The notes: a model not told the origin generated them from the letters alone. DNA of 39,601 bases from Clostridiales bacterium (GCA_029012085.1 JAQXLK010000212.1:1-39601); one strand, 5' to 3'. Positions 3,000-36,304 are shown, counted from the first letter of the stretch. Program-made: numbers and translations.

Positions 3000-3072
3000 G
3001 GGCCGCTAGCTCATTTGGTAGAGCACCTGACTCTTAATCAGGGTGTGCGGGGTTCGAGCCCCCGGCGGCCCA
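3000..3072 (+). tRNA. tRNA-Lys (anticodon CTT)
   Basis: Acceptor GGGCCGC/GCGGCCC, anticodon arm CCTGA-CTCTTAA-TCAGG, T arm CGGGG-TTCGAGC-CCCCG; CCA not encoded. Confidence 0.95.
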
Positions 3073-3192
3073 CTACAAGGAATCGATTTGATGTTTAAGC
3101 ATTGGGTTGGTTCTTTTTTTCATTATAAATATATATCATTTCGTTTTAAAATATGTTATGATACCCATAGCAATCTTAAGAGAGGACAAGAG

Positions 3193-3729
3193 ATGAAGCA
3201 GTTAATCATTTTGAATATCATTAATTTGATTTTGTTAGGATTAGTGGCAGTGTGTATGTTTGTGCTGCCGTTGGGGATGACGATTTTCTTGGGGGCAGCG
3301 GTTCTGGTGTTTGCCATTTATTCCAATTATGTGATGGTTGTTCGCAATCAGGATGATGATTATCTTCTAAAGAATGCAGATAAGAAGGGGATTTTTAGAA
3401 AGCAGGTAAATGGCTTTATAGCCCAGCGTCAGAGCTTAGAGAAGCGGGAGGACACCATAGGTGATGACGAGAAACTTCGGGAAGTGTATGAGCTGGTTTG
3501 CAGACAGGTGAACAATAATATTGATTCGGCAATTAAGTTTATGGAGATGTATGATTATGTACAAAGACCCAGCACACAGTATTTAGATGACCTGTTTTTG
3601 GAAAATAAGCGGCTTATCGTTAATTTTAACGAGGTGGTGGAGCAATTTATTAAGATTGAGAACTCCGTTCGTGATGAGGATACTACATATATAGATGATT
3701 TGTTGGTAAGTTTGCGGGAGATGCATTAA
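3193..3729 (+). CDS. Small membrane protein with two N-terminal TM segments and a coiled-coil cytoplasmic part
   Basis: The 3043 start in the ORF track overlaps the tRNA; ATG 3193 after agaggacaagag gives MKQLIILNIINLILLGLVAVCMFVLPLG... Confidence 0.75.
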   Translation: MKQLIILNIINLILLGLVAVCMFVLPLGMTIFLGAAVLVFAIYSNYVMVVRNQDDDYLLKNADKKGIFRKQVNGFIAQRQSLEKREDTIGDDEKLREVYELVCRQVNNNIDSAIKFMEMYDYVQRPSTQYLDDLFLENKRLIVNFNEVVEQFIKIENSVRDEDTTYIDDLLVSLREMH

Positions 3730-3827
3730 AATGCAACGAAGGAAAGTTGTCATTTGTATGATAGATATAGCATGATAATTGATGATGACGCAATAGTGAT
3801 GATGAAATTTTAAGAAGGAGAGACGGA

Positions 3828-5489
3828 ATGAAGAATAATAACAAAGTAATTTTTGCAGGTATTGTATTGGTAATTGTGGTGATTGCGGCAATTATATTTG
3901 GATTGGGTTCCAAATTAGTAAAACAGGTGGCAACTGTGAATGAAAAGTCATTAGATGAGATGCTGGATAACATTGATGTGGCAGAGGTAACACCGGTGAA
4001 GGGGTCAGTGAATCTTGGTAATACCAGTCTTTATGATGAACTTCCGGAGATTGACAAGTATCCATTACAGGTAGTGGGCAGTGCCGATATCGTGTTAGAG
4101 GTATTTTCTTCCGGTGAGAAGGCGGGCAGTGGATATGAGTCATGGTTAATTGATGTGGCAAATGATTTTAATAACAGTGGTGTTACAACGCAAAGTGGAA
4201 AGAGTGTTGCTATTTCGGTTCGTCAGATGAGTTCCGGAATGGGTGCGGATTACATTATTTCGAATAAGTATCTTCCGGACCTTTATACACCTTCTAATGA
4301 GTTGTTTGGAAAATATGTAGAGACCAATGGGGGAGCCATTGAGGTAGTTAGTGAACGGCTGGTTGGAAATACTGCCGGTATTTTGGTTGATAAGAACAAA
4401 GGGTATGACAGTCTTTCTAAGGTGGCGGAGGCAGTAGCCGGTAACAAGATGAATCTCGGTTATACGAATCCACAGACCAGTGCCAGCGGTCTGAATTTCC
4501 TGATTTCCATTTTAAAGAATTATGACAAGAATAATATGTTAAGTGATACGGCAGCACAGAAATTCTCCGAATTCCAGAACAATATTCCATTTGTTGCATT
4601 TACGACGATGCAGATGCGTGACAGTGCAAAGAATGGAACATTAGATGGAATGATTATGGAGTATCAGACGTACATCAATGAGGAAGATTTGGAAGGAAAA
4701 TATGATTTCATACCTTACGGAATTCGTCATGACAATCCGCTTTATGGTGTGAGTATGAAGCTGAATGAGTCAGCGGACAAACGTGAGGCTGCTCAGTTGT
4801 TTAGCGAGTTTTGTGCAAATGGTTCATCCCAGAAGCTGGCATCTGAGAAGGGATTTAATAATAATGAGGATTATAAGTCAGAGTACGAGGTGACAGGAGC
4901 GGATATTACACAGGCTCTTGAGCTGTATAAGAAGAAAAAGGATAGCGGAAAAGATATTATTGCCGTATTTGTTGCGGATTGCAGTGGAAGTATGGATGGT
5001 GAACCGATTAACCAGTTAAGGGAGTCACTTTCAAATGGAGCGCAGTACATAAATGATAACAATTATATCGGTCTGGTAAGCTATAGTGATAGTGTGACAA
5101 TCGAGCTTCCAATTGCAGAGTTTGATTTGAATCAGAGAGCTTATTTCCAGGGTGCACTTGATAATCTGCAGGCGTGGGGTGGTACGGCTAGCTATGATGC
5201 TGTATTAGTGGCAACCAATATGATTAAGCAGGCGAAGGCGGATCATCCGGATGCAAAGGTAATGTTGTTCTTATTAAGTGATGGTATGGCAAATGAAGGT
5301 TACACACTAGAGAATATTACCGGTGTATTGAAGGAAGAGAAGATACCGGTATATACAATTAGTTATACCAGTGAGGCAGACAAAGATGCTATGCAGCAGT
5401 TGTCTAATATTAATGAAGCAGCAAGTATTGATGCGGATAGTGATGATATCATTTATAAGATTAAGAGTTTGTTCAATTCACAAATGTAG
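3828..5489 (+). CDS. Membrane-anchored protein fusing an extracellular solute-binding-like domain to a C-terminal VWA domain
   Basis: N-terminal TM; periplasmic-binding-like region; MIDAS motif DCSGSMDG followed by a VWA fold sequence; RBS aaggag. Confidence 0.85.
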   Translation: MKNNNKVIFAGIVLVIVVIAAIIFGLGSKLVKQVATVNEKSLDEMLDNIDVAEVTPVKGSVNLGNTSLYDELPEIDKYPLQVVGSADIVLEVFSSGEKAGSGYESWLIDVANDFNNSGVTTQSGKSVAISVRQMSSGMGADYIISNKYLPDLYTPSNELFGKYVETNGGAIEVVSERLVGNTAGILVDKNKGYDSLSKVAEAVAGNKMNLGYTNPQTSASGLNFLISILKNYDKNNMLSDTAAQKFSEFQNNIPFVAFTTMQMRDSAKNGTLDGMIMEYQTYINEEDLEGKYDFIPYGIRHDNPLYGVSMKLNESADKREAAQLFSEFCANGSSQKLASEKGFNNNEDYKSEYEVTGADITQALELYKKKKDSGKDIIAVFVADCSGSMDGEPINQLRESLSNGAQYINDNNYIGLVSYSDSVTIELPIAEFDLNQRAYFQGALDNLQAWGGTASYDAVLVATNMIKQAKADHPDAKVMLFLLSDGMANEGYTLENITGVLKEEKIPVYTISYTSEADKDAMQQLSNINEAASIDADSDDIIYKIKSLFNSQM

Positions 5490-5875
5490 GATAGAGAAAT
5501 AGGCACGGCGAGATATGTGAATGAATAAAATTTTCATCTTTCTGAACATTTATACACAAATATACATAAAATTTTGCCAAAATATACACAATATATCTAT
5601 TGTATTCTAAAGGTAAAATGCTATAATATGCATATAGAGACGTTGGGCGCTATAATGCATCTATGACAGAATTGAAAAATACAATAGAAATGGGGTGGGG
5701 TTAGAGGTAGAATCGGACTTTTTACATAATAAATTACTTGCGTAACAGGGCAGAATCCTCTATAATAATATTAATTATGTGTAACTGTTCAGAGCCAGGC
5801 AGATTTATATATAGATATATGGTAATCACAGCGTATATGTAAAGATAGATTCTGGAGTTAGAAGGGGATTTGTTT

Positions 5876-7711
5876 ATGAAAAAAGTCATCTTAAGAAGAA
5901 GAATTTTTGATAAGGAGCGTTTTTTAACGTATAATATTGACAATGAAGCAAGCCTTGATGAAGAATTGCTTGACTTTATTGAAGAAGAAGAACCGAAGGG
6001 AATTGTATCTGTTATTTTTGAAGAGGGGGAAGAGTTTGATACCTTTTCTTATGATGTGACAGATAAGATTCATTTGAGCGAGTTGTCGACACAAGAGGTG
6101 GGCGCGGAGATGGTGCTTCGTGTACTTCGTAGTCTTTTGCTTGCTTTGATTGATATGACAGAATATCGGATTCCTTTATCCTATCTTATTTTACATCGTG
6201 ATTACATATATGTTGATTCGGATTATAAGGTTGAGTTTATTTGTATTCCTATAGAAGAGATGCAGGAAGACGTGGATATCAATAGCTTTTTAAGAGGATA
6301 TCTTGCAAATATTCGTTATGATTTATCAGAGGATTGTGGATATGTTGCAAAGCTTTTGTCATATGTGAATAATACAGCAATGTTTAATATGCGCAATATG
6401 GTTACACTTGTGGAAGAGTTGATGGATGAAAGAGGCATTGAGATTCCGGATGAATCATCTGCAGAGATTTATGTAGAATATCAGGAAGTTACGGATGAGG
6501 AAGAAGTGGAGGAAGAGCCTGTAGAACAGGAGACAGCTTCTGAGGCTCAGGAAGACATTGATGAATTTGAAGATGTTTCCGGTGGAACTGAGGAGGTGTC
6601 AGTAGAGGCAGAGGTTTCTGGTGAAGCAGAGGAATTAGCCGGTGAAGTGGTGGTTTCTGATGAGGCAGAGGAACAAGCGGATGAAGCGGAGATTTCTAAT
6701 GAAAAAGAGGAAGTGTCTGCGGAAGCAGCAGTTTCTAGTGAAGAAGAGGAAACATCTGATAAAGCGGCGGTTTCCAATGAATCAGGTAAAGTATCTGCAA
6801 AAGCAGCAGGACACGTTAACCGTGTAGAGGATGTTATTGGTGCCATTGAGGAGATTTTGGAGAATGAGAAAGAAACAATAGATCCAAGAGAAGAAGCTAT
6901 AAAAAGATTGAAAAATCAATCACGTAAAGCATCTCAAAAGGAGTCTCAAGAGGAGCCTCATAAAGAGTCTGTTATTTCGGATGATGAGTCTATTAAAGAA
7001 TTTATAGATAAGCTGGTAGAAGAGGAATCGGCGGAAGAAACACCTGTGGAGGAGAAGAAGGAAAAGCCGGCAAAAAGATCATTTTTTAAGACAAAAGAGG
7101 CAAAAGAGCAAGGGGTTGTCATTGAAGACGAGCTTGACGAGTTCCTGGCGGAAAAAGAACGTGAGGACCAGGAAGCAAATCATGAAGAAAGTAATATGAA
7201 AATCAAAAAGAACATTAAGGTTAGTCGTGCAAGTATTCTAAAGAATACACAGGAGGAACTTAAGGCTGAAGGAGAAGAAGTAGAAGAAACAGAGAATGAA
7301 CCGGAAGAAGTGGAAGATGCGGTGGAAGGTGTAGAGGAAGAAGTAGTTAGTACATCTATTCTTAGTCAGACACTTGGTGGTACCGGATTATTAAAGAATG
7401 TTCCGAATGTAAAGATTAATCCATATTTGATTCGAACAAATACAAAGGAACGAATTGTGATTACCAAGCAGAATTTCAAGATTGGTAAGGCAAGCATGGG
7501 TGTGGACTATTCGGTGAAAGGTAATGGTGCGGTCAGTAGATCACATGCAACCATTACAAATAAAAATGGTGTTTACTATATCAAGGATAATAAGTCAACG
7601 AATCATACTTATGTGAACAATAAGATGCTTGCGGATGGAGAGAGTGAACTGCTGACACATGATTGTAAAATTGTATTGGGAGATGAAGAATTTACTTTCA
7701 AATTAAGATAG
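5876..7711 (+). CDS. FHA domain-containing protein with N-terminal DUF6382-like domain
   Basis: C-terminal FHA motifs (FKIGKASMGVDYSVKGNGAVSRSHATITNKNGVYYIKDNKSTNHTYVNNKML); acidic linker; RBS aagggg. Confidence 0.85.
   Translation: MKKVILRRRIFDKERFLTYNIDNEASLDEELLDFIEEEEPKGIVSVIFEEGEEFDTFSYDVTDKIHLSELSTQEVGAEMVLRVLRSLLLALIDMTEYRIPLSYLILHRDYIYVDSDYKVEFICIPIEEMQEDVDINSFLRGYLANIRYDLSEDCGYVAKLLSYVNNTAMFNMRNMVTLVEELMDERGIEIPDESSAEIYVEYQEVTDEEEVEEEPVEQETASEAQEDIDEFEDVSGGTEEVSVEAEVSGEAEELAGEVVVSDEAEEQADEAEISNEKEEVSAEAAVSSEEEETSDKAAVSNESGKVSAKAAGHVNRVEDVIGAIEEILENEKETIDPREEAIKRLKNQSRKASQKESQEEPHKESVISDDESIKEFIDKLVEEESAEETPVEEKKEKPAKRSFFKTKEAKEQGVVIEDELDEFLAEKEREDQEANHEESNMKIKKNIKVSRASILKNTQEELKAEGEEVEETENEPEEVEDAVEGVEEEVVSTSILSQTLGGTGLLKNVPNVKINPYLIRTNTKERIVITKQNFKIGKASMGVDYSVKGNGAVSRSHATITNKNGVYYIKDNKSTNHTYVNNKMLADGESELLTHDCKIVLGDEEFTFKLR
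6575..6808 (+). repeat. Six contiguous 39-bp (13-aa) imperfect repeats in the acidic linker of the FHA protein
   Basis: VSGGTEEVSVEAE / VSGEAEELAGEVV / VSDEAEEQADEAE / ISNEKEEVSAEAA / VSSEEEETSDKAA / VSNESGKVSAKAA. Confidence 0.85.
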
Positions 7712-7758
7712 AAGTCTGTTTCCAGGAGCCTTGTGAATTCTGGAGAAAAAGCAGATGG

Positions 7759-7806
7759 AATGCCTCTGACATCAGTTGATTTAGCTGGTATTTAGAGGCA
7801 TTTTTG
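7759..7806 (+). terminator. Rho-independent terminator between the FHA and PP2C genes
   Basis: AATGCCTCT ... AGAGGCATTTTT. Confidence 0.6.
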
Positions 7807-7840
7807 TTTCTTAACAGAAAAGATAAGTAAGGAGAAGTTT

Positions 7841-8620
7841 ATGGAGATAGTTGCTGCCTGCTATACACATGCAGGAAATATAAAAGAAATAAATCAAGAT
7901 TCCTTTTCAGTAAAGGTGGTTAATTCCCCGAAAGGAAAGATTGCTTTTGCGGTGGTTTGTGATGGAATGGGTGGTCTGGATCATGGAGAATTGGCAAGTA
8001 AAGAAGTTGTAATGGCATTTAATGGCTGGTTTTTGAAACAGTTTGCAGGGATAGTTGCAACGGATACATTTACTCCGGAGCTGATACAGGCACAATGGCA
8101 GCAATTGGTTGACCAAATGAATAGCAGACTGGCTGAGTATGCACAGCAGAAGAATATGATGATGGGAACAACGGTTTCTGTGTTGTTGGTATATCAGGGA
8201 AAATATTACATCTGCCATGTGGGAGACAGCCGTATCTATCAAATCCAAAAAAGTGTTATGCAATTGACAGTGGATCATACGTTAGTGGCTAAGGAAGTTG
8301 AGATGGGAACTTTAACACCAACAGAGGCACTGGTAGATCCTAGAAGAAATATATTGTTACAATGTGTAGGAGCATCTGGAAGTGTGAAATCACAGTTTGA
8401 GCAGGGAGAAATCTTAGAAGACACGGTATTTTTGCTATGCTCCGATGGGTTTGTTCATGTGGTTTCAGACGAAGAATTATGGGAAACTTTTAATCCAACG
8501 GTAATCTCTGAGAAAGAAAAACTTACAAAAGAATGTCAAAGGATGGTAAAGCTTGTGATGGAAAGGGGCGAACGGGATAATATTACCGTTGTAGCTCTTG
8601 CAGTGAAACAGGCAGTTTAG
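7841..8620 (+). CDS. PP2C-family Ser/Thr protein phosphatase
   Basis: VVCDGMGGLDHGELAS, CHVGDSRIYQI, LLCSDGFVHVV, GERDNITVV motifs. Confidence 0.92.
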   Translation: MEIVAACYTHAGNIKEINQDSFSVKVVNSPKGKIAFAVVCDGMGGLDHGELASKEVVMAFNGWFLKQFAGIVATDTFTPELIQAQWQQLVDQMNSRLAEYAQQKNMMMGTTVSVLLVYQGKYYICHVGDSRIYQIQKSVMQLTVDHTLVAKEVEMGTLTPTEALVDPRRNILLQCVGASGSVKSQFEQGEILEDTVFLLCSDGFVHVVSDEELWETFNPTVISEKEKLTKECQRMVKLVMERGERDNITVVALAVKQAV

Positions 8621-8649
8621 AGTGTCAAGAACCGAGGAGGATACTACAG

Positions 8650-10686
8650 ATGACGAGAGTAGGTACTGTTATAGGTGGTAAATACGAAATATTAAAAAAA
8701 ATTGGACAAGGTGGTATGTCGACGGTTTATGTTGCTATGGACACACGACTGAATAAACAATGGGCTATAAAGGAGATTAAAAAGAGTAAAGGACAGGATA
8801 CAAAGACATTACTGCGAAGCCTTCAAATGGAAGCCAACATACTAAAGATGGTAGATCATCCGGTGCTTCCAAGAATTGTGGATGTTATTCATTATAAAGG
8901 AACCGTATTTGTTGTAATGGATTACATTGAGGGCAGAACTTTAAGCGAAATCATAAAAAAGGAAGGAGCACAGCCTCAGGAAAAGGTGGTAGAGTGGGCA
9001 AAAGATTTATGCAGTGCTTTAGGATACCTTCACTCTATGAATCCTCCGATTATTTACCGGGATATGAAACCTTCTAATATTATGGTGAAACCGGATGGAA
9101 AGGTAAAGCTAATTGATTTTGGAACGGCAAAGGAATTCGATGTGGAAAGTCTGGCAGATACCACCGCACTTGGTACAAGAGGATATGCGGCACCGGAACA
9201 GTTTGGAGATGCCAATGGACGGGGAATCCATAAAACGGATGCAAGAACAGATATATATAGTTTAGGTGCAACATTATATCATATTTTAACAGGAAAGAAT
9301 CCTAGTGAGCCTCCGTATGTTATAAAGCCGATTCGGGAGTGGAATCCAAAGTTGTCAAGTGGTCTTGAAAAGATTATTGTGAAATGTACAATGGCGAATC
9401 CAGAGGATCGGTATCAGGATTGTGCAGAGCTTTTATATGCCTTAGAACATTATGAAGAACTGGATGATGCATTTCGAAAAGAAAGCTTCCATAAGATGAA
9501 AAGTTTCTTTGTGAGTGCGGGATTCACTTTGTGTTGTGGTGCAGTGGCGATAACCGGTTATTTGGGCAATCAAAGAGAACGAAAGATGAATTATGAGAAT
9601 TTACTGAATGAGGGATATTCTTATACGGTTAAAGGAGATTATGATGATGCTGCCAGAGTATATGTAGAAGCCATTACAGATGTGGATGGCAGCAGGAATA
9701 CAGCGTATTTAGAGCTTTTAAATCTGTATATCAACTATATGGATGATGCAGAAACCGGTCTTAGCCGTGTTACATATTATATTGATCAGGAAAATGACCA
9801 TATTGAGAAAGACCAGACACTGCTTCTTCGTGTGGCAATGGATTATTTTGATGTCATGCAGGATTATAAAACAAGTGCATATTATTTTGATATGTTAAAT
9901 AGTAAGGAACATCCGGAAGCTGCTTATTATAGCACGATTGCACTGGCTATGGGAGAGTTGAATGTAGATTATAGCAGTTTGCTTAATAATCTGAGTGAGT
10001 TTGAAAAAGTGAATGACGGATTAACAATGTCAATCAATAAGCTGATGAATTACCGGTTGTTGTGTATTGTATATTCCCGCAATTTAAAACAGGTTGATGA
10101 TGCAGCGCAGCGGTTGGTAAATGTTGCTGAAAAAGGATTGAATCTTCTCGAAAATTATGAAGACGATAGTGTTAAAGCAGAGTATTACACCATTTATAAC
10201 CAATATCTGGCATCGGCATATGAGTGTCTGGGTAATCAGAATTTAGAGGTAGATAAAACCAAGGCTTCGGAGTATTACAATCAGGCATTGGAATGCTGTG
10301 ATTTTATTTTGGGCATGGTGTCTGCCGGTGATGATGAGACCATTAAGAGTATTACGGATGAAAAGCTTCGGGAAGCAAAATACTGTCAGAAGGCGGATAT
10401 TTATGAACAGCTTGGTGAATACAAAGAGGCAGATGAGGTTTACAAAAAGGCAGAAAAAGAATATTTCCAAAATAGCATCAATATTTATACAGGGCATTTA
10501 TCAGTATTGTGTAAGATGCAGGAGTTGAAGACGACAGATGTAGAACAGTGGGATTATGAAACGCTTTCTGCTCTCTATGAAGAAGGAAGTCATGTGCCGG
10601 GGATTGAAAATGATTACAGGTGGAAACAGCTGACACAGAAGCTTTCGCCATTGTTTGAGAGAATGGAGGGAGATACAGATGTATGA
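8650..10686 (+). CDS. PknB-like Ser/Thr protein kinase with a TM segment and a C-terminal TPR-like region
   Basis: GQGGMSTVY, AIKEIKK, YRDMKPSNIM, DFGTAK, GTRGYAAPEQFG; TM about residues 285-305; helical repeats after it. Confidence 0.93.
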   Translation: MTRVGTVIGGKYEILKKIGQGGMSTVYVAMDTRLNKQWAIKEIKKSKGQDTKTLLRSLQMEANILKMVDHPVLPRIVDVIHYKGTVFVVMDYIEGRTLSEIIKKEGAQPQEKVVEWAKDLCSALGYLHSMNPPIIYRDMKPSNIMVKPDGKVKLIDFGTAKEFDVESLADTTALGTRGYAAPEQFGDANGRGIHKTDARTDIYSLGATLYHILTGKNPSEPPYVIKPIREWNPKLSSGLEKIIVKCTMANPEDRYQDCAELLYALEHYEELDDAFRKESFHKMKSFFVSAGFTLCCGAVAITGYLGNQRERKMNYENLLNEGYSYTVKGDYDDAARVYVEAITDVDGSRNTAYLELLNLYINYMDDAETGLSRVTYYIDQENDHIEKDQTLLLRVAMDYFDVMQDYKTSAYYFDMLNSKEHPEAAYYSTIALAMGELNVDYSSLLNNLSEFEKVNDGLTMSINKLMNYRLLCIVYSRNLKQVDDAAQRLVNVAEKGLNLLENYEDDSVKAEYYTIYNQYLASAYECLGNQNLEVDKTKASEYYNQALECCDFILGMVSAGDDETIKSITDEKLREAKYCQKADIYEQLGEYKEADEVYKKAEKEYFQNSINIYTGHLSVLCKMQELKTTDVEQWDYETLSALYEEGSHVPGIENDYRWKQLTQKLSPLFERMEGDTDV

Positions 10687-11539
10687 AGCAATGTTTTATA
10701 TCGGTTTAGTTCTTTTTATAATAGGTTTTATTGTTTCGGTGATTTTATTTATAAGGAATGATGTAGCAAAGATTATAGGTGACCTTACCGGATATAATGC
10801 CAGAAAGGCTGTGGAGAAAATACAAAGAGAAAGAGAAGGAAAGAAGCAGCCGGCAGGAGAAGATTTGTCTGAAGTTGGGAAAAAGAATAATAGAAGAAAG
10901 CTTCGGAAAGATGAAAAGACGGATGTATTACCATTAGTGTCAAATACCGAAAAAGCAGAAACATTATCCGCTGATTTGAAAAATACAAAAAGTTCTAAGA
11001 AAGTTGAAGATATGGAGACTGCCGGTTTTGAAGGTGTCTTTGAAACGGAGGAGGACGTTACAGTATTTGGAGGAGAAGTCGTTACACACATGCCAACAAC
11101 GGTTTTATCTGAGGAATCTTCTTCTCAGGATGTTTCTGTAAAACCAGAGGAAATCCCTGAACTTTCCAAAGCATCTACAAAGGTGTTAAAGGAAAATAAT
11201 TCCGGAGTGCATATCCTGCCAAATGGGATTAATGCGCTTGCCAGTGATGAAGAGCTGGCAAAGATGCTGGCAGAGGAAGAGAATGGTATATTAACGGAGG
11301 AAGAAACTGGCATACTGACAGAAGAAACCGGTATATTGACAGAGGAAGGAACGGATATACTGGTAGGTGAAGAAACCGATATATTGGCAGGTGAAGAAAC
11401 GGAGATGTCAGATTCGGATGCCGCCACGGATTTGCTATATGATGAATCCATGGAGAAAACCACTCTGTTAACGGAGAATGATGAGACAGATGTGCTCATT
11501 GGAAATGAGATGACAAGTGTGCTGGAAAGTGGTAAATAG
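10679..11539 (+). CDS. Single-pass membrane protein with an acidic tail carrying repeated T-x-[VIL]-L motifs
   Basis: Start ATG 10679 overlaps the kinase stop (ATGTATGA); N-terminal TM; motifs TDVL, TTVL, TKVL, TGIL, TGIL, TDIL, TDIL, TDLL, TTLL, TDVL, TSVL. Confidence 0.8.
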   Translation: MYEAMFYIGLVLFIIGFIVSVILFIRNDVAKIIGDLTGYNARKAVEKIQREREGKKQPAGEDLSEVGKKNNRRKLRKDEKTDVLPLVSNTEKAETLSADLKNTKSSKKVEDMETAGFEGVFETEEDVTVFGGEVVTHMPTTVLSEESSSQDVSVKPEEIPELSKASTKVLKENNSGVHILPNGINALASDEELAKMLAEEENGILTEEETGILTEETGILTEEGTDILVGEETDILAGEETEMSDSDAATDLLYDESMEKTTLLTENDETDVLIGNEMTSVLESGK

Positions 11540-11596
11540 ATGAAAGTTTTTCTTTCAAAGAAGTAGTTATAAGATTTGAGGTGAAAGGAAGATAGA

Positions 11597-14500
11597 ATGC
11601 AGAATCGATATCATATAAAGGAAAAGATAATTGCATACGGAATGATTGTTTTGCTGATGGTCAATCTGCTTTCCGGTTCTGTTAAGATGAATGTGACAGT
11701 AGCGGCTGGCGAAACAGAGTCCGAAATAACATGTAAGGTAGTGATGAAGAATACCGCTACCGGACAGGAAAAGACGGTGTCCAATAGTGGAATAACCGTG
11801 GAATATACGTTAGATAATCTGGCTGATGTTGGTTTGCACCGGACAATAGAAGTTGATAATGGGGATGGAAACTATAGTGTTTTAGAGGGAAAAGATGGTG
11901 CACTTTCTTTGGAGACTCAGGCGGATATCAATAGTAAAACTGCAACAGAAACCTTTGTGGCAGAAGAGGGAAAATCAAAAAAATACAAGATTACATATTA
12001 TGTATTTAAGGAAGAGTCTGGTTCAAAGGTGCAGGTGGGAGAGTCGGTTGTGAAGGAATTCAGACTGGATAAAGTGTCACCGGTAGTTTCGTTTGAAAGC
12101 ACTATGAATGAAGAAAAGTCCTTCCAGGATTCTGTGACGTATACTCCGGTGGTGAACAAATCTGACTGTAGTATTAAGGTACGTGGCACAAGAACACATT
12201 TATCGGAAGAGGGAGAGGTGCGTACTGATAATTTAGAGTACATCATAACAAATGAAAATCCAAACGTAGTTTTTGACAAAACAGGTAATTATGAGATTTA
12301 TACATGGGCAAAAGATGAAGCCGGTAATGAGACAGAATCTACAAGACATACCTTTTCCATTGATAAAGATGGGCCACAGATTTCCATAACAGGTGTGGAA
12401 TCCGGTAAGCATTATAACCAGGAAAGTCTGAAGCTTGTTTTTACATTAAAGGATTTGAATGTCAGTGATAAAATGGAATGCTATAATGTAAAGATTCAAA
12501 AAAATGGTGAAGAACAGACAAATCTGGCCAATGCGGTCAAATGGGAAATAAAGAAGAGTGAACACATAACTACAGGTCAGCTTTCTCTGTCGGAGGAAGG
12601 TTCCTATCATATTGAAGTTACAGGGAAGGATGCTGTGGATAACAGCGATACAAAGTCGATTGATTTTGTAATTGATAAAACGGCTCCTACGGCGAATATT
12701 ACCGTTTCACACGATAATACCCAGAATGGTGAGCCGATTCGTAAAAAGGAAACAGTGGAAGGGCAGTCACAAGAAGTGGATGTGTATTATTTAAAAGATG
12801 ATGCAAAGCTGGAATATAATGTGACAGAGCTTTATGGAGAAGAGGGGGAAATACATATTGGTTCAGAGTTTAATGGAAGTGCATCAGAGGAAAAGACGTA
12901 TTCTATGAATTCGAACCAAATATCGATTACCTATGGTGATGGTGGAAAAGAAGGAAAGTTTGAGTCATATATCTGGGCAAAGGATGCAGCCGATAATTAT
13001 GTGGGTAAAAATAAAGAAAATGGTTCGCTGGATCCGGCGTATCAATGTCATTTTGTGATTGACAGGACTGCTCCTAAATTCACAATTACAGGGCCTGACG
13101 GAAATAATTCATTTCATTCTATTGGAGATACTCTTTTGTTTACAGCAGAGGATGCCAACCATGATTTGGATACCTATAAAATAACGGTAACACGGACAGA
13201 TAATAATGGAACGGTTACTACACAGACTTATGAAGGCAGTGCCGGTTGGACGGTGAAAGATGCCTTAAAAGTACAGTATAAACTGGAACTATCAGAGGAA
13301 GGAAACTATACCGTAGAGTTTACGGGTCAGGATAAATCCGGTAATGAAGGAAAGAATGAGGATGGAAATACTGCCAGCGCTTCTTTCCGCGTTGATACAA
13401 CAGCGCCTTCCATTGAGTTATCTTCTGTGCAGGAGGGTGGCTATTATAGCAATGATGTACCATTATCTATTCATATTCGGGAATTAAATTATGCAGATGC
13501 CGAGGCATCTATTACTATTGCCAGAAAACTGGGTGAAGAAGAGGAAGAGACAACCACACCTCTTATACTGACGCAGCTTGATACGGCATTTGAGCAGCTG
13601 TTTACAAAAGATGGAAGTTATACGGTGTGTATAAATGCGAAGGATGCAGCAGGAAATGAGGCGGTTCCGGCAGTTATTCATTTTGTGATTGACAAGACAG
13701 CACCGGTATTAACGATTACCGGAATTGGTGATGGAGAGATGACACGGCAGGAGGTTACTCTGAATTTACGTGCCGAAGATTATGTTCATAATTTTTCAAA
13801 ATACAGAGTGGTTGTGACACGTAGTGATATAGATGGCGAACTTGAGAGCGAAAGTTTCGTATACCCTGCTGAGCAGTGGACGGAAGAAGGGACTGTGGCT
13901 TCAAAGAGTCTGACATTTTCAGAGGAAGGCATATATAAGGTTACGTTTGATGCTGTAGATAAGGCTGAAAATGAAGCAACCACAGCAAGTATTACATTTT
14001 CCATTGATTATACAGCGCCGGTGATTTCTGAGGTGGTATATTCAGATGCAAATGGATTATTGGGAGAAAAATATCACAATATTTATAGTAATCAGGCAAT
14101 CCTGGTTGAATTTAAGGTGAAAGATCAAACCGTTGGCGTGAATAATCAAAAGGTATATGTAACAGTGGGAAAACCGGAAGAAAAGGGATTATTTCCACAA
14201 ATTTATATTGCACATAAGGCAATTGGAAATTCTTATTATGTATATGTACCAACAGACCTTAGCGTTAGTGAATTTGATGATACCATAACAATATGGGCCA
14301 ATGACAAGCTGGACAATGAAGGAAATGTTACGTCTTCGAATATTATTTTTAATACAAATAAACCGGAGATTCAGATGGACTGTGATACGGATTATACCAA
14401 ATGGACGAATCAGAGTGTAACATTTCATACTACAGTAACAGATGTGAAAGCAGGAATCAAAGAGGTTGTTTATAAGATTAATAATGAGAAGGTAAAAACA

Positions 14501-16150
14501 GTTAAGTTTGACAGTTTGACCACAAGCTATTCTTACGATTTGACTGCAGTGGATAGTGCGGATAAAGTGACGGGTTATATGGTTGCGGTGGAAGTGACGA
14601 ATAATTGTGGAACAAGCAATACCATGCAAAAACGGGTATATATTGATAAGGATAAACCGAAGGTCAGTCTGTTCGGTATTCAAAACGGAACACATTATGG
14701 TGCAAGTCAGACGTTTACAACGTCTGTACAGGATGTGTCATACAGGCAGACGAAAACAGTATATGTGATTAAAAGAACATTGGATGGGAAGACCACAGAT
14801 ATATCGGCTGCAGTATTTTCTTCCGGAAAGTATGAGGATAGCTGCAAGCGGAAGATGATAAAAGAAGGCAGTTATAAAATATATGCAGTGACAACAGATT
14901 CTGCTGGAAATCGGGCGGTATCCAATACACTTAGTTTTGTGATTGACAAAACGGCACCAAAACTTTCGATTGACGGTGTCACAGAGGGTACAATGAGTGG
15001 CTCACAGGTAGATTTGGAGTTTGGATGTGTCGAATCCTTTTTTGCTACAAACAGGATTTCTATTGATGTGGAACGCACACTAGACGGTAAAACGGTAAAA
15101 AGTCAGATTACCGGTTTCCCGAAAACGAAAAAGAAGTCTTCGTTGAAACATAGCTTTACAGAGGATGGAACCTATCGTGTTACAATGTCAGCCACAGATA
15201 AAGCAGGAAATGTGGCAACTACTAAAACCATTTCATTTTCGGTGGACCGTACAAAACCAGTAATTCGCTTTGTGGGAACAGACAATTACCAGCAATGGAA
15301 GAAACCGGTAACAGTGCAGTTTACGGTTGAAGAATCCTACTATGCAAAGAATCGTGTTGAAATCCAGGGTACCTGTACGGATATAGATGGTAATGTATCA
15401 AATGTGGAATTGCCAAAGATGACTTGTTCAGGAAAGGTGAGCAGCCTGACCAAAGTGTTTGACAAAGATGGAATATATGAGTTTGAAGTGATATCAACGG
15501 ATGAGGCAGGAAATAGTGAAAGAGGAAACATACACTTTACAATTGATCAGACAAATCCGGAGATTCACAATGTGAAACAGTATGATGGAGGTTATTACCA
15601 GCAGTTCAAATTAGCGGATTCACTAGAGGAGATATTTAAAGATCTGACGGTAGTGTCTTATCGTATTTTGTTAAACGGTATTGAGTATGATGGTGTTGCT
15701 TCAATAGAGGAAGAAGGAAAATATACTTTAGAAGTAGACGTGACAGATGAATTAGACCATATAACAAATGAGACTGTTGAATTTATCATTGACCATACGG
15801 CGCCAAAGGTTATTTTTAGTGGAGCAAAAGATGGTGGTGAGGTGCATGACAGTGGCGTTATTACTCTGGCGTTGACAAATGCGGAAGATGAAATTACGGA
15901 TGTGCGTATGAATGGTGTACATTATGGTGCAGATGTAAGGAGTCTGTCTTATGACGAATACGGTTCTTATCAGATAGAGGTTGATTGCGTGGATAAGGCA
16001 GGAAATGCTGTTACCAGAAGTCTGTATTTTGTCTATAGTAACCCGATGACAAAAGTGATTCTGTTTGGCGGAATGGGTATTTTGGCTGTTTCAGGCTGTA
16101 TGTGGTTATGGGTGAGAAACAGAAAGGACAGAAGGAGAAATAAAACATGA
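11597..16150 (+). CDS. Large secreted/surface protein with about 12 bacterial Ig-like repeats and a C-terminal TM anchor
   Basis: N-terminal signal-like segment; repeated F(V/S)IDKTAP...ITG units; C-terminal VILFGGMGILAVSGCMWLWVRNRKDRRRNKT; no LPXTG seen. Confidence 0.85.
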   Translation: MQNRYHIKEKIIAYGMIVLLMVNLLSGSVKMNVTVAAGETESEITCKVVMKNTATGQEKTVSNSGITVEYTLDNLADVGLHRTIEVDNGDGNYSVLEGKDGALSLETQADINSKTATETFVAEEGKSKKYKITYYVFKEESGSKVQVGESVVKEFRLDKVSPVVSFESTMNEEKSFQDSVTYTPVVNKSDCSIKVRGTRTHLSEEGEVRTDNLEYIITNENPNVVFDKTGNYEIYTWAKDEAGNETESTRHTFSIDKDGPQISITGVESGKHYNQESLKLVFTLKDLNVSDKMECYNVKIQKNGEEQTNLANAVKWEIKKSEHITTGQLSLSEEGSYHIEVTGKDAVDNSDTKSIDFVIDKTAPTANITVSHDNTQNGEPIRKKETVEGQSQEVDVYYLKDDAKLEYNVTELYGEEGEIHIGSEFNGSASEEKTYSMNSNQISITYGDGGKEGKFESYIWAKDAADNYVGKNKENGSLDPAYQCHFVIDRTAPKFTITGPDGNNSFHSIGDTLLFTAEDANHDLDTYKITVTRTDNNGTVTTQTYEGSAGWTVKDALKVQYKLELSEEGNYTVEFTGQDKSGNEGKNEDGNTASASFRVDTTAPSIELSSVQEGGYYSNDVPLSIHIRELNYADAEASITIARKLGEEEEETTTPLILTQLDTAFEQLFTKDGSYTVCINAKDAAGNEAVPAVIHFVIDKTAPVLTITGIGDGEMTRQEVTLNLRAEDYVHNFSKYRVVVTRSDIDGELESESFVYPAEQWTEEGTVASKSLTFSEEGIYKVTFDAVDKAENEATTASITFSIDYTAPVISEVVYSDANGLLGEKYHNIYSNQAILVEFKVKDQTVGVNNQKVYVTVGKPEEKGLFPQIYIAHKAIGNSYYVYVPTDLSVSEFDDTITIWANDKLDNEGNVTSSNIIFNTNKPEIQMDCDTDYTKWTNQSVTFHTTVTDVKAGIKEVVYKINNEKVKTVKFDSLTTSYSYDLTAVDSADKVTGYMVAVEVTNNCGTSNTMQKRVYIDKDKPKVSLFGIQNGTHYGASQTFTTSVQDVSYRQTKTVYVIKRTLDGKTTDISAAVFSSGKYEDSCKRKMIKEGSYKIYAVTTDSAGNRAVSNTLSFVIDKTAPKLSIDGVTEGTMSGSQVDLEFGCVESFFATNRISIDVERTLDGKTVKSQITGFPKTKKKSSLKHSFTEDGTYRVTMSATDKAGNVATTKTISFSVDRTKPVIRFVGTDNYQQWKKPVTVQFTVEESYYAKNRVEIQGTCTDIDGNVSNVELPKMTCSGKVSSLTKVFDKDGIYEFEVISTDEAGNSERGNIHFTIDQTNPEIHNVKQYDGGYYQQFKLADSLEEIFKDLTVVSYRILLNGIEYDGVASIEEEGKYTLEVDVTDELDHITNETVEFIIDHTAPKVIFSGAKDGGEVHDSGVITLALTNAEDEITDVRMNGVHYGADVRSLSYDEYGSYQIEVDCVDKAGNAVTRSLYFVYSNPMTKVILFGGMGILAVSGCMWLWVRNRKDRRRNKT

Positions 16151-16809
16151 TAAAAGCGGTTGTATTTGACATGGATGGTGTTATTTTTGACTCGGAAAAA
16201 TTATATCGCAAGCATTGGATGATAACCGGTGAAGAATATGGGATACCAGCTGATACCATGAAAGAACTTTGTAATCTGATTGCAGGAGCAACAAAGGAGA
16301 ATAATGAAAAATTGATGAAGTCCCGGTTTGGACAGGATTTTGACTATATGGAATTTCGTGAAAGAACCATGACTAGAATGGATCAGGATATTTTAGAAAA
16401 TGGTCTGGAATTAAAACCGGGTGTTCATGAATTATTCTCTTATTTACAAGAACATGGGTATCTTATTGGTCTTGCAACCTCGACCTGTCAGGAACGTGCG
16501 GAGCGAAATCTGCGAAATGCGGGGATACTTGATGTGTTTGATCAGATTGTTTACGGAGGAACCGTGCCAAGAGGAAAACCATTCCCGGATATTTATATAA
16601 AAGCCTGTGAACTTCTTGGTGTAAAGCCGGAGGAGGCAATAGGCATAGAAGATTCCCTAAATGGTGTGAAAGCATCTGCTTTAGCCGGACTGTATACTGT
16701 AATGGTGGTTGATTTGATAGAGCCGACACAGGAGTGCAGAGAACAGGCAAATCAGATTTATGAGTCGCTGTTTGATGTTGTTTCGCTGTTGGAAAACAGC
16801 CGGATTTGA
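16147..16809 (+). CDS. HAD-family hydrolase (beta-phosphoglucomutase-like)
   Basis: KAVVFDMDGVIFDSE, ATSTCQE, GKPFPDIYIKA, IGIEDSLNGVKA; ATGA overlap with the upstream CDS. Confidence 0.92.
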   Translation: MIKAVVFDMDGVIFDSEKLYRKHWMITGEEYGIPADTMKELCNLIAGATKENNEKLMKSRFGQDFDYMEFRERTMTRMDQDILENGLELKPGVHELFSYLQEHGYLIGLATSTCQERAERNLRNAGILDVFDQIVYGGTVPRGKPFPDIYIKACELLGVKPEEAIGIEDSLNGVKASALAGLYTVMVVDLIEPTQECREQANQIYESLFDVVSLLENSRI

Positions 16810-17465: not shown

Positions 17466-18434
17466 ATGGATAATTATACAGATGAAATTACGGGACAAGA
17501 AAATGGACTTCACCTGTCCCGAGTTAATAATATAGAAAAAAGGGTACAACAGTCAGCTCCGAATTGGGAACAGTTAAAGAAGGAACTGGATGAAGAAACA
17601 ACGGTATATAAGGCACCAGAACTGAGTGGAGAACATATGGGAACGGCTTCGAAGATTGTTATGAAGCTAACCGGCTTTTTGATTTATGTGGCGCTTATTA
17701 TTCTATTTATGTCATGTGTATGGTATTGCTTTCAGGATTTATCAAGGTTTCACAGTAATCTTTTTGTAGTTCTTGCGGCATATGTTTTAAGTGGTGTTGT
17801 CTGTACCATAGATGCAGTTGTGATAAACCGAGGATACAAACCGAAAAAGTCATTGTATTTGTTTGCATGGCTGTTGAATTTTATATATCCATTCCAAAGA
17901 AGCAATCATTTGTTAAAGAAAAATAATATTGGTGACTATGCTCTGGTCATTGCTGTTGTTTTAGGTTTTGTGGGAGTCGGTTATAAGGCTGTACCAGCGC
18001 AATTTCAATATAAAGCAGTATATTTAGTAAAGGACGCAAGCGGACGTCAGGAAATTGAAACATTGTTGAGCCAGAATGCAGATGGTGTACCTTTGGGAGA
18101 ACAGTTATACAAATCCTTCCATGTGAGTGGTGTTGCCGTGAACAAAAATGACAGGGTTACCAAGGTTGTTCTGATTGGAAAAAGTAATCATATTGTGGAT
18201 CCGGGTCTGGAAGGAAAAACAGATGTAAAATGGAACATAAAAGAGAATTTATTTGTAAAAAAAGGCTCTTATGATGTTTCTACCCAACTGGTCTTTATAA
18301 AAGGGAGTCATAGCAGCGAATATCGTTTGTCAACAGTGAAGCTTGATGAGGAAGCATTGCTTCCGTCATATATATATAACTACTGGCGAAAGGTAATCCT
18401 TCGGTGGGATGAGTATGGACAAAGGGTGGATTGA
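17466..18434 (+). CDS. Hypothetical membrane protein
   Basis: Long ORF with several TM segments and a C-terminal soluble domain; no family recognised. Confidence 0.7.
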   Translation: MDNYTDEITGQENGLHLSRVNNIEKRVQQSAPNWEQLKKELDEETTVYKAPELSGEHMGTASKIVMKLTGFLIYVALIILFMSCVWYCFQDLSRFHSNLFVVLAAYVLSGVVCTIDAVVINRGYKPKKSLYLFAWLLNFIYPFQRSNHLLKKNNIGDYALVIAVVLGFVGVGYKAVPAQFQYKAVYLVKDASGRQEIETLLSQNADGVPLGEQLYKSFHVSGVAVNKNDRVTKVVLIGKSNHIVDPGLEGKTDVKWNIKENLFVKKGSYDVSTQLVFIKGSHSSEYRLSTVKLDEEALLPSYIYNYWRKVILRWDEYGQRVD

Positions 18435-34823: not shown

Positions 34824-36304
34824 TTATTCTGTTATAGACATTAAGTTTTGAGCCATCTGGTTCAGCTCTTCAATGATGGAACCAACTTCGCTGGTAATTT
34901 CGCTGTTCTCAGAGGTGGTTTCAAAGGTTTCATTGGAATGTGCAGTAACTTCTTCTGTTGCGGCAGAAATGGTTTCGATTCCTTGTGCAATCATGTCATT
35001 GGCATCGGTAAGTTCGTTTACTAACTGATTCAGCTGCTCTGCCTGCTGAGCTACTTGACTGGTGCGGTCTGTAATCTCGACAAAACTTTTAGCTGTGTTA
35101 TTTGCAGCAACATTCTGCTCCTCAGCATTTTGAATCATCTGTTCAATTACAGCAATTACCTGAGAAAGCTCAGTGGAAATGTTACCGATTAGTGAGGTGA
35201 TATCCACTGTAGCTTGTTGTGTCTGGGTTGCTAAATTCGAAATCTCGGAAGCTACTACGGCGAATCCACGTCCAGCCTCCCCTGCTCTTGCAGCTTCAAT
35301 GCTGGCATTCAGTGACAGCAGGCTGGTCTGAGTTGTAATTCCGTTAATAAGTTCAATAATGGACTGCATCTGGTCTGTATATGTACTAAGTTCTTCTAAT
35401 TCACGGGATACATTCTCATTTGCTTCATTGGATATATTAACATGCTCGATTAACTGTTTGATGTTTTCCTGAGAGGACATTAATTCATTCTGTGTTTCAT
35501 CAATGTTACTCGTAATGGAATGAAAAGCATCTTCTACTTTTTTTATCGTGTTCTGAATTTGACCGGTTTTTTCAAGCTGAATTTGAATGGAATCGGAGGT
35601 TTCGTTCGTTCCCTGTGCAACTTCTTCCATGGAAATCAAGGTCTTATTTGTGGCAGTTGCTAATAATTCCATTTTCTCTGATACAACACCGATGTTGGAT
35701 GTAATCTGCTGGGAAGCCTGCAGGATATGCTCCATTAACTTTGCTGCATGTTCCTTTTCCTTTTCAATTGCCTGCAAACGTGCATTGGGTTTGCTTCCAT
35801 TACATGAGAGCTTGCTATTGAATATAAAGTAAACAGGATAAGTGAACCGATTCGAATTTCAATGTTTGGTAAATCTTCAGAAGCAATCTGATGGGTAATC
35901 CCGGTATAAATGACTTGACCAACGTTAGAAAGTAAGATTGCTCCAGTGAATCTGATTAACAGTTTGGCATCGTTATAGCAAAATAATACGGTACCTACTA
36001 CAATGGCATATACATAGGCAACGGGTGAAATGGTAGTAAAAATAATAAAAGTATAAAAAATCCAAAACCCGACTGGCATACATCGTTTTACGATAGGTGT
36101 ATCATAATCTTTTCTGTAAGAAAACAGACAAACGAAAAATGGTACCAAAGCCAATAAACTAAAAATTAATAAATATGAAATTGTACGGCTTTTCTTGAGC
36201 ACTTCAATTATGTAACAAATGATTAAAGTAACATTCATAAAGCCATAAGCAAAAAGGGCTGCGCCGTTACAGCGTTTCATGTCGGAATAATCTTTGTAAT
36301 TCAT
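34824..36304 (-). pseudogene. Methyl-accepting chemotaxis protein split by a 1-nt frameshift
   Basis: N-terminal TM half (35735-36304, minus) ends ...[22 protein letters not shown]-terminal MCP signalling half (34824-35777, minus) contains [26 protein letters not shown]; one added base near 35785-35791 joins them as ...[22 protein letters not shown]... Confidence 0.8.

Follow-up and report, generated by a model that had tools for sequence, protein, structure and literature searches.

A stand-alone T7SSe-type gene cassette as a candidate phosphothreonine relay in a Clostridiales genome

Genes at the locus

The window, by which we mean the whole stretch of 39,601 nucleotides analysed from a Clostridiales bacterium, contains seven plus-strand genes that an initial annotation had read as a single signalling island, and an ORF check recovered all seven where it had placed them, open and intact (Table 1). 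Its description of a start-stop overlap is likewise borne out: the TxxL gene begins (ATG at 10679) inside the kinase gene, whose TGA stop is at 10684-10686, so that the two overlap by 8 bp. The last of the seven does encode a 1517-aa Ig-repeat protein, with Big_13/Big_3 repeats; on reading the sequence, we find a signal peptide, the Ig-like repeats and a C-terminal transmembrane segment (TM) with a basic tail, and no LPXTG motif.

Table 1. Positions of the genes and motifs discussed, in window coordinates
Feature	Position	Strand	Match or remark
tRNA-Lys(ctt)	3000-3073	+	upstream of VWA pair
CC228 membrane/coiled-coil protein	3193-3729	+	no Pfam family
VWA/solute-binding protein	3828-5489	+	membrane-anchored fusion; PF13531 (SBP_bac_11, residues 100-343), PF00092 (VWA, residues 380-539)
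FHA gene, TseJ-like candidate reader: DUF6382, disordered acidic linker, C-terminal FHA domain	5876-7711	+	
Two T-x-[IL]-L motifs (TSIL, TGLL)	7352-7393	+	right upstream of FHA domain
PP2C (PPM) phosphatase, TseF-like	7841-8620	+	PF13672, 52.1 bits
Ser/Thr kinase, TseD-like, C-terminal TPR (predicted)	8650-10686	+	PF00069, 169.5 bits, E 1.3e-49
TxxL membrane protein, TseH/K-like: N-terminal TM, AKIIGDLTG head, cytoplasmic tail	10679-11539	+	no family
TxxL docking array (putative)	10919-11524	+	11 T-x-[hydrophobic]-L motifs
Giant Ig-repeat protein, TseI-like	11597-16150	+	PF19077, 110 bits, and related Ig families
HAD hydrolase	16147-16809	+	start overlaps Ig stop

Both enzymes retain their catalytic motifs. 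The phosphatase carries the metal-binding motifs DGMGG, GDSR, SDG and RDN, and scores 185.6 bits against NF033484, under the cut-off of 230. In the kinase, the active-site motifs YRDxKxxN (here YRDMKPSN) and DFG are intact; its match to NF033483 (227 bits, below 450) spans residues 5-272 only, and PASTA repeats of the PrkC/PknB type were not found. The kinase C-terminus is modelled by AF2 as all-helical (pLDDT 89) with TPR fold matches, and since there is one TM, preceded by basic residues, we predict that this TPR solenoid lies outside the cell.

Elsewhere in the window, a PDDEXK_2 family protein (275-1246) has an EGREEGRQEGR repeat run in its C-terminal part, and downstream of its gene are an HTH gene (1279-1635) and then an NB-ARC/AAA ATPase gene (1807-2835). 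A 322-aa protein with no Pfam family over cut-off (17466-18434) is encoded between TIGR04086 and the SCIFF maturase; as these two adjoin directly in most other loci of the genus, it looks like a lineage-specific insertion. A protein with a methyl-accepting chemotaxis signalling domain (34824-35777) is encoded on the minus strand, the rest of the window being mostly plus-strand. Promoter and terminator scans gave results near chance level, and operon borders were not drawn from them.

Conservation, loss and genomic setting

The island as originally proposed had the VWA/solute-binding, FHA, PP2C, kinase, TxxL and Ig proteins cooperating, and their genes are indeed adjacent and co-oriented in the window contig; for the VWA pair (CC228 and the VWA/solute-binding gene), however, the arrangement is not conserved in other genomes. 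The VWA/solute-binding protein is matched in 10 of 60 genomes, the window's own included. One of the other nine, a weak VWA-only match, was left out, and in all eight genomes compared the gene lies elsewhere, with no FHA, PP2C, kinase, TxxL or Ig gene adjoining it. Nor does the pair stand upstream of the FHA gene in any of the other FHA loci of the genus. Because of these two observations we drop the pair from the system. In both the window and L011, the closest relative (79% identity), the pair comes just after the same tRNA-Lys, and a 386-bp gap separates the pair from the FHA gene, which also speaks against cooperation of all six proteins; we consider it very improbable. The window genes fall into two units, CC228 with the VWA/solute-binding gene (3193-5489) and FHA-PP2C-kinase-TxxL-Ig (5876-16150). 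In most of the eight genomes a small membrane protein, CC228-like in several, is encoded upstream of the VWA/solute-binding gene, and its neighbours include PspA (L012, and L015 by sequence) and TelA (L017), which suggests that the pair is an envelope-stress module.

Gene neighbourhoods, which the initial annotation had itself named as a check, are thus poorly conserved for the VWA pair, but not for the core cassette. Versions of FHA-PP2C-kinase-TxxL-Ig occur at 77 non-redundant loci, although the sequences are related, so that locus and motif counts are inflated and do not represent independent events. The five-gene order is also found in named Lachnospiraceae and other Clostridia (context was examined for 20 of the DUF6382 matches of the order search), and isolates carrying the cassette include [Ruminococcus] torques ATCC 27756 (L177) and Lachnoanaerobaculum saburreum DSM 3986 (L168). 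Within the genus the FHA gene is nearly universal, and the order is 172-aa gene (other strand)-FHA-[PP2C-kinase-TxxL-Ig]-HAD-TIGR04086-SCIFF maturase-SecDF-RecJ-RelA, where the 172-aa gene would, by our reading, encode a peptidylprolyl isomerase.

Three states can be distinguished. The full cassette (state A) is present in the window and at L070, L071, L073, L075-L077, L081, L083 and L093, and at L084 up to the contig end. State B comprises FHA-kinase-Ig, lacking both PP2C and a separate TxxL gene (L080, L082 and L088-L091, with L092 cut by the contig end). In state C (six genus members) the FHA gene is followed directly by HAD, at a gap of 22-88 bp, and the kinase sensor region has no match anywhere in each of these genomes. 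On a neighbour-gene tree, some nodes of which are weakly supported, state C arose at least three times (L078/L079/L087; L072/L074; L086). As the four genes vanish together, repeatedly, while FHA stays, this marks PP2C-kinase-TxxL-Ig as a functional unit; the HAD hydrolase, which remains as a conserved neighbour where the cassette is lost, is probably outside it. Furthermore, in five state-B genomes (L080, L082, L090, L091 and L092) the Ig reading frame starts with a TM head of the TxxL type, PP2C and the array being absent from all five, and this fusion argues that the TxxL and Ig products are physically tied. The proposal of a signalling unit is therefore supported for writer, eraser, reader and surface protein, on gene order, joint loss, the TxxL-head/Ig fusion and the motif described below, but not for the VWA pair. 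Other arrangements were also seen: two DUF6382-FHA genes stand in tandem upstream of PP2C-kinase-TxxL at L110, L151 and L155, and at L163, L178 and L157 a different gene cluster lies downstream of the kinase-TxxL genes; it has a kinase and a PP2C of its own, resembles T7SSc-like content and includes weak VWA matches at L163 and L178.

The initial annotation did not recognise this composition as characterised. The component set was in fact described in 2024, in the T7SSe (Garrett & Palmer 2024, PMC11217815), while the stand-alone form and the putative docking array are new. In the T7SSe, TseJ is a DUF6382-FHA protein, TseF a PPM phosphatase and TseD a kinase; TseH and TseK have a single TM and a short unstructured cytoplasmic region, and TsdI, which is related to TseI, is Ig-like with a signal peptide and a C-terminal TM (PMC11217815). 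Judged by architecture and order, and set beside that paper's descriptions rather than its sequences, the cassette appears to match TseJ-TseF-TseD-TseH/K-TseI. The FHA protein exceeds the cut-offs of both PF19909 (DUF6382; 43.5 bits) and PF00498 (FHA; 50.4 bits), as expected of TseJ, and the enzymes correspond to a PPM phosphatase (TseF) and a TM kinase with a predicted extracellular helical domain (TseD). For the other two, sequence reading gives a single TM with an unstructured tail (TseH/K) and Ig repeats with a signal peptide and C-terminal TM (TseI), and both assignments also draw on homology to genes in EssC-linked loci (L097, L141, L142 and L174). This paper is the only literature that we found on DUF6382, and likewise on TseJ.

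The same gene order adjoins EssC and WXG100 genes at those four loci and Tad pilus genes at others (e.g. L095, L156, L167, L179, L197 and L200), and elsewhere stands alone. Among the 77 loci, EssC is linked at 9 at least, Tad at 16 at least (four of them also with SCIFF) and SCIFF only at 13 at least, with none of these in the fetched stretch at 39; the counts are lower bounds, as the reference sets are limited and many stretches short. In the window genome, the sole match to a TseC/EssC FtsK-type ATPase is a 904-aa FtsK/SpoIIIE-type protein, neither WXG100 TseA/TseA2 (PF06013; 0 matches) nor EssB (PF10140) is matched, and no YukD-like TseB was seen within the window. Full EssC is also absent from two other full-cassette genomes (G010, 95% complete; G019, 98%). 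Since EssC, EssB and WXG100 are missing, we reject a role as T7SS adjunct in this genome and regard the cassette as a T7SSe accessory set uncoupled from any T7SS, a conclusion that is strong, not absolute, for a genome 91.6% complete in 407 contigs.

In Lachnoanaerobaculum (L161, L164, L168 and L182), the cassette lies in one uninterrupted run with Tad genes and SCIFF maturase-SecDF, possibly an ancestral layout, and from this the SCIFF-locus cassette would appear to have had a Tad linkage in the past. On another contig (L107, contig C174), the window genome carries its own Tad locus. A further DUF6382-FHA protein is encoded there, without an adjacent co-oriented kinase gene; it contains GETTLL and could be a second reader of the window array. 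With the cassette recurring in Tad loci and alone, 'T7SSe component' may describe it too narrowly, and the cassette may be a general envelope-signalling module common in Lachnospiraceae.

The TxxL array and its candidate reader

The array of TxxL motifs noted in the window holds up against shuffles of its own tail: 11 T-x-[hydrophobic]-L motifs are present against 1.0 expected, and 0 of 2000 shuffles reached 11. Their threonine codons are at 10919, 11096, 11177, 11306, 11327, 11351, 11375, 11426, 11459, 11486 and 11513. TRF detects a 24-bp, 73%-match tandem array only at 11271-11403, and with 7 of the 11 motifs beyond it, a pure DNA tandem repeat is ruled out. The motif, first noticed in the window, was afterwards tested on other loci, taking from each of 80 non-redundant loci the small protein whose gene comes immediately after that of the kinase. 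In these tails, 279 motifs of the form T-[not P]-[ILVMF]-L were counted where 18.2 would be expected, and the consensus is E-T-T-V-L-S/N. When the test is anchored on hydrophobic-Leu pairs alone, so that Thr is not presupposed, position 0 is Thr at 286 of 363 anchors and Ser at 3 (7.6-fold enriched and 0.1-fold, respectively). Control proteins from the same loci give 0.93x (833 unassigned proteins), 0.83x (Ig) and 0.87x (EssC) for Thr at this position, although values scatter in small control families in which few positions are available, TadA for instance.

What could impose such a pattern? Ser is the easiest substitute for Thr and is phosphorylated by the same kinase class, yet it is depleted, as would be expected if the reader does not accept Ser. 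FHA domains are readers of this type: pThr is bound and pSer is not, through a pocket that a conserved His maintains (PMC3146460). They also select the residue at pT+3, with pTxxD and pTxxI/V among the classes described (PMC6468809); the Thr:Ser bias of the array would thus appear to be an FHA-domain signature. Kinases, phosphatases and FHA proteins of T7SS subtypes have previously been reported with no known target, and the array is a candidate for one, with a reader predicted from sequence. Alternatively, the array may be low-complexity drift, or may serve a reader other than an FHA domain (kinase or phosphatase docking, for example). The tails do look disordered and acidic, and a 24-bp tandem repeat makes up some of the window array, but the Thr:Ser ratio of 286:3, the lack of enrichment in control proteins, the motifs outside the DNA repeat and the same motif in FHA linkers speak against this alternative, and we regard it as unlikely.

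In those linkers, 105 motifs are found against 16.5 expected where a kinase gene is adjacent, and 15 against 6.5 where it is not, and GETTVL-type motifs sit in the same linker of paralogues. Neither tail nor linker motif is strictly required, since several kinase-bearing cassettes have just 0-1 tail motifs (L070, L077 and L083) and the linker is without a motif in 25 of 77 cassettes with a kinase. Strict dependence of the linker motif on the cassette is likewise too strong a claim: L086, which has no cassette, keeps one, and several cassette genomes have none. Near the C-terminus of the TxxL-like proteins (last 45 aa), a second conserved element resembling V-x-I-H-T-D/E-E is found in 51 of 76 and is possibly a second binding site; the window tail has a related FETEEDVTVFGG stretch mid-tail.

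The FHA domain of the candidate reader keeps SRxHA and STNHT (pocket Ser, His and Asn), with the phosphate-contacting Arg replaced by Lys (GR to GK) across the genus. All 18 genus members with the cassette retain this pocket Lys and the Thr, whereas three of the six without it have a change (two Lys to Thr, one Thr to Ile); these three belong to one clade and so count as about two events. For DUF6382, a Foldseek search of the PDB with the AF2 model (pLDDT 91.7) returned kinases and pseudokinases (E 4e-6 to 3e-4, probability 1.00, TM by query about 0.4-0.64), among them the Rv3910 kinase-homology domain (3uqc), YukC/EssB (6z0f and 9qks) and the TraF N-domain (8cba). We therefore predict a pseudokinase fold for DUF6382, a claim at the level of fold and not of family membership, since TM-scores are moderate and the sequence comparison with EssB is weak: against a small EssB collection of limited quality, in which two sequences were true members and one a stray EssC-like protein, hhalign gives 6.5%, with no sequence-level relation found, and against kinases 3.4%. 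The DUF6382 profile, run against PDB sequences, has matches that are weak and not credible.

A candidate relay and its relation to known systems

Taken together, the reading that we favour, with some reservation, is that 5876-16150 is a stand-alone copy of a T7SSe-type phosphothreonine relay, TseJ-F-D-H/K-I. Gene content, order, block loss, TxxL-head/Ig fusions, Thr-over-Ser enrichment and T7SS gene absence were computed, whereas catalysis, topology, the sites of phosphorylation, docking of FHA on the array, and the signal and its output are our inferences. The kinase, with a cytosolic catalytic domain, one TM and the extracellular TPR solenoid, would sense the state of the giant Ig protein or a ligand, and would phosphorylate, at multiple sites, the T-x-[VIL]-L threonines in the cytoplasmic part of the TxxL protein. 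Once phosphorylated, the motifs would bring the soluble DUF6382-FHA protein to the membrane by way of its FHA domain, with an affinity graded by motif number, and PP2C would reset the system by stripping the phosphates. Through the linker motifs, the reader may bind itself or another copy, in competition with the array. Output could be via DUF6382, the predicted pseudokinase and likely output or partner-binding end, or via the Ig protein. Some findings run contrary to this model: the Arg to Lys replacement in the window FHA domain, the cassettes with few or no tail or linker motifs, and state-B genomes that keep the kinase but lack both array and PP2C.

Could the cassette instead be the remains of a decayed T7SSe locus, with no current function after loss of EssC and WXG100? 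Its components are an accessory part of the T7SSe, the genome lacks EssC, EssB and WXG100, and the block has been lost repeatedly in the genus. However, all frames are intact with catalytic motifs kept, the cassette is conserved in many species of the genus and other genera have it at this SCIFF locus too, the array has been rebuilt with new spacers rather than eroded, the FHA pocket is altered only where the block is gone, and the neighbour in Lachnoanaerobaculum is Tad, not T7SS; such decay is, we believe, decidedly unlikely. A less remote alternative, tentative though it is, is that the relay regulates the Tad pilus (or another envelope system) elsewhere in the genome, the linkage having been broken. 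The Tad-linked cassettes, the contiguous Lachnoanaerobaculum layout and the DUF6382-FHA protein with no adjacent kinase at the window genome's own Tad locus would all fit, but that locus has no direct link to the cassette and its FHA protein is a divergent paralogue. Regulation of Tad is compatible with the relay model, as it concerns mainly the relay output. More broadly, chances are about even that the pThr array is a portable FHA-recruitment device of Clostridia, used in T7SSe, Tad and stand-alone Ig settings, with DUF6382 a new FHA-fused pseudokinase-adaptor family and array length tuning the response.

Several known systems share parts of this design. GarA and OdhI have their own phospho-motif N-terminal to the FHA domain, as in the window reader. 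The same holds for DgcB (PMC6733907), the motif being putative here; unlike DgcB and GarA/OdhI, which have other effector domains, the window set also places the motif on a second protein, the membrane-bound carrier of the array. In the T7SSb, the YukC pseudokinase binds the YukB FHA domains, apparently independently of phosphorylation, so that YukC/EssB and YukB/EssC likewise pair a pseudokinase fold with FHA domains (PMC9600267), but in the window the pseudokinase-like and FHA domains are fused in one protein. With the T7SSe the cassette shares a DUF6382-FHA protein, PPM phosphatase, TM kinase, single-TM protein and large Sec-exported Ig protein with a C-terminal TM; it differs in having no TseC ATPase or WXG100, in its site at a HAD-TIGR04086-SCIFF-SecDF locus and in its TPR sensor, and the TxxL motif is not reported in the text of PMC11217815. 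The closest working analogue of the proposed relay is PpkA-TssL-Fha of the T6SS (PMC3953482), where a membrane kinase, a threonine on a membrane protein (pThr14 of A. tumefaciens TssL) and FHA docking are combined as predicted here, although in a Gram-negative system, with a single site rather than an array and with unrelated partners.
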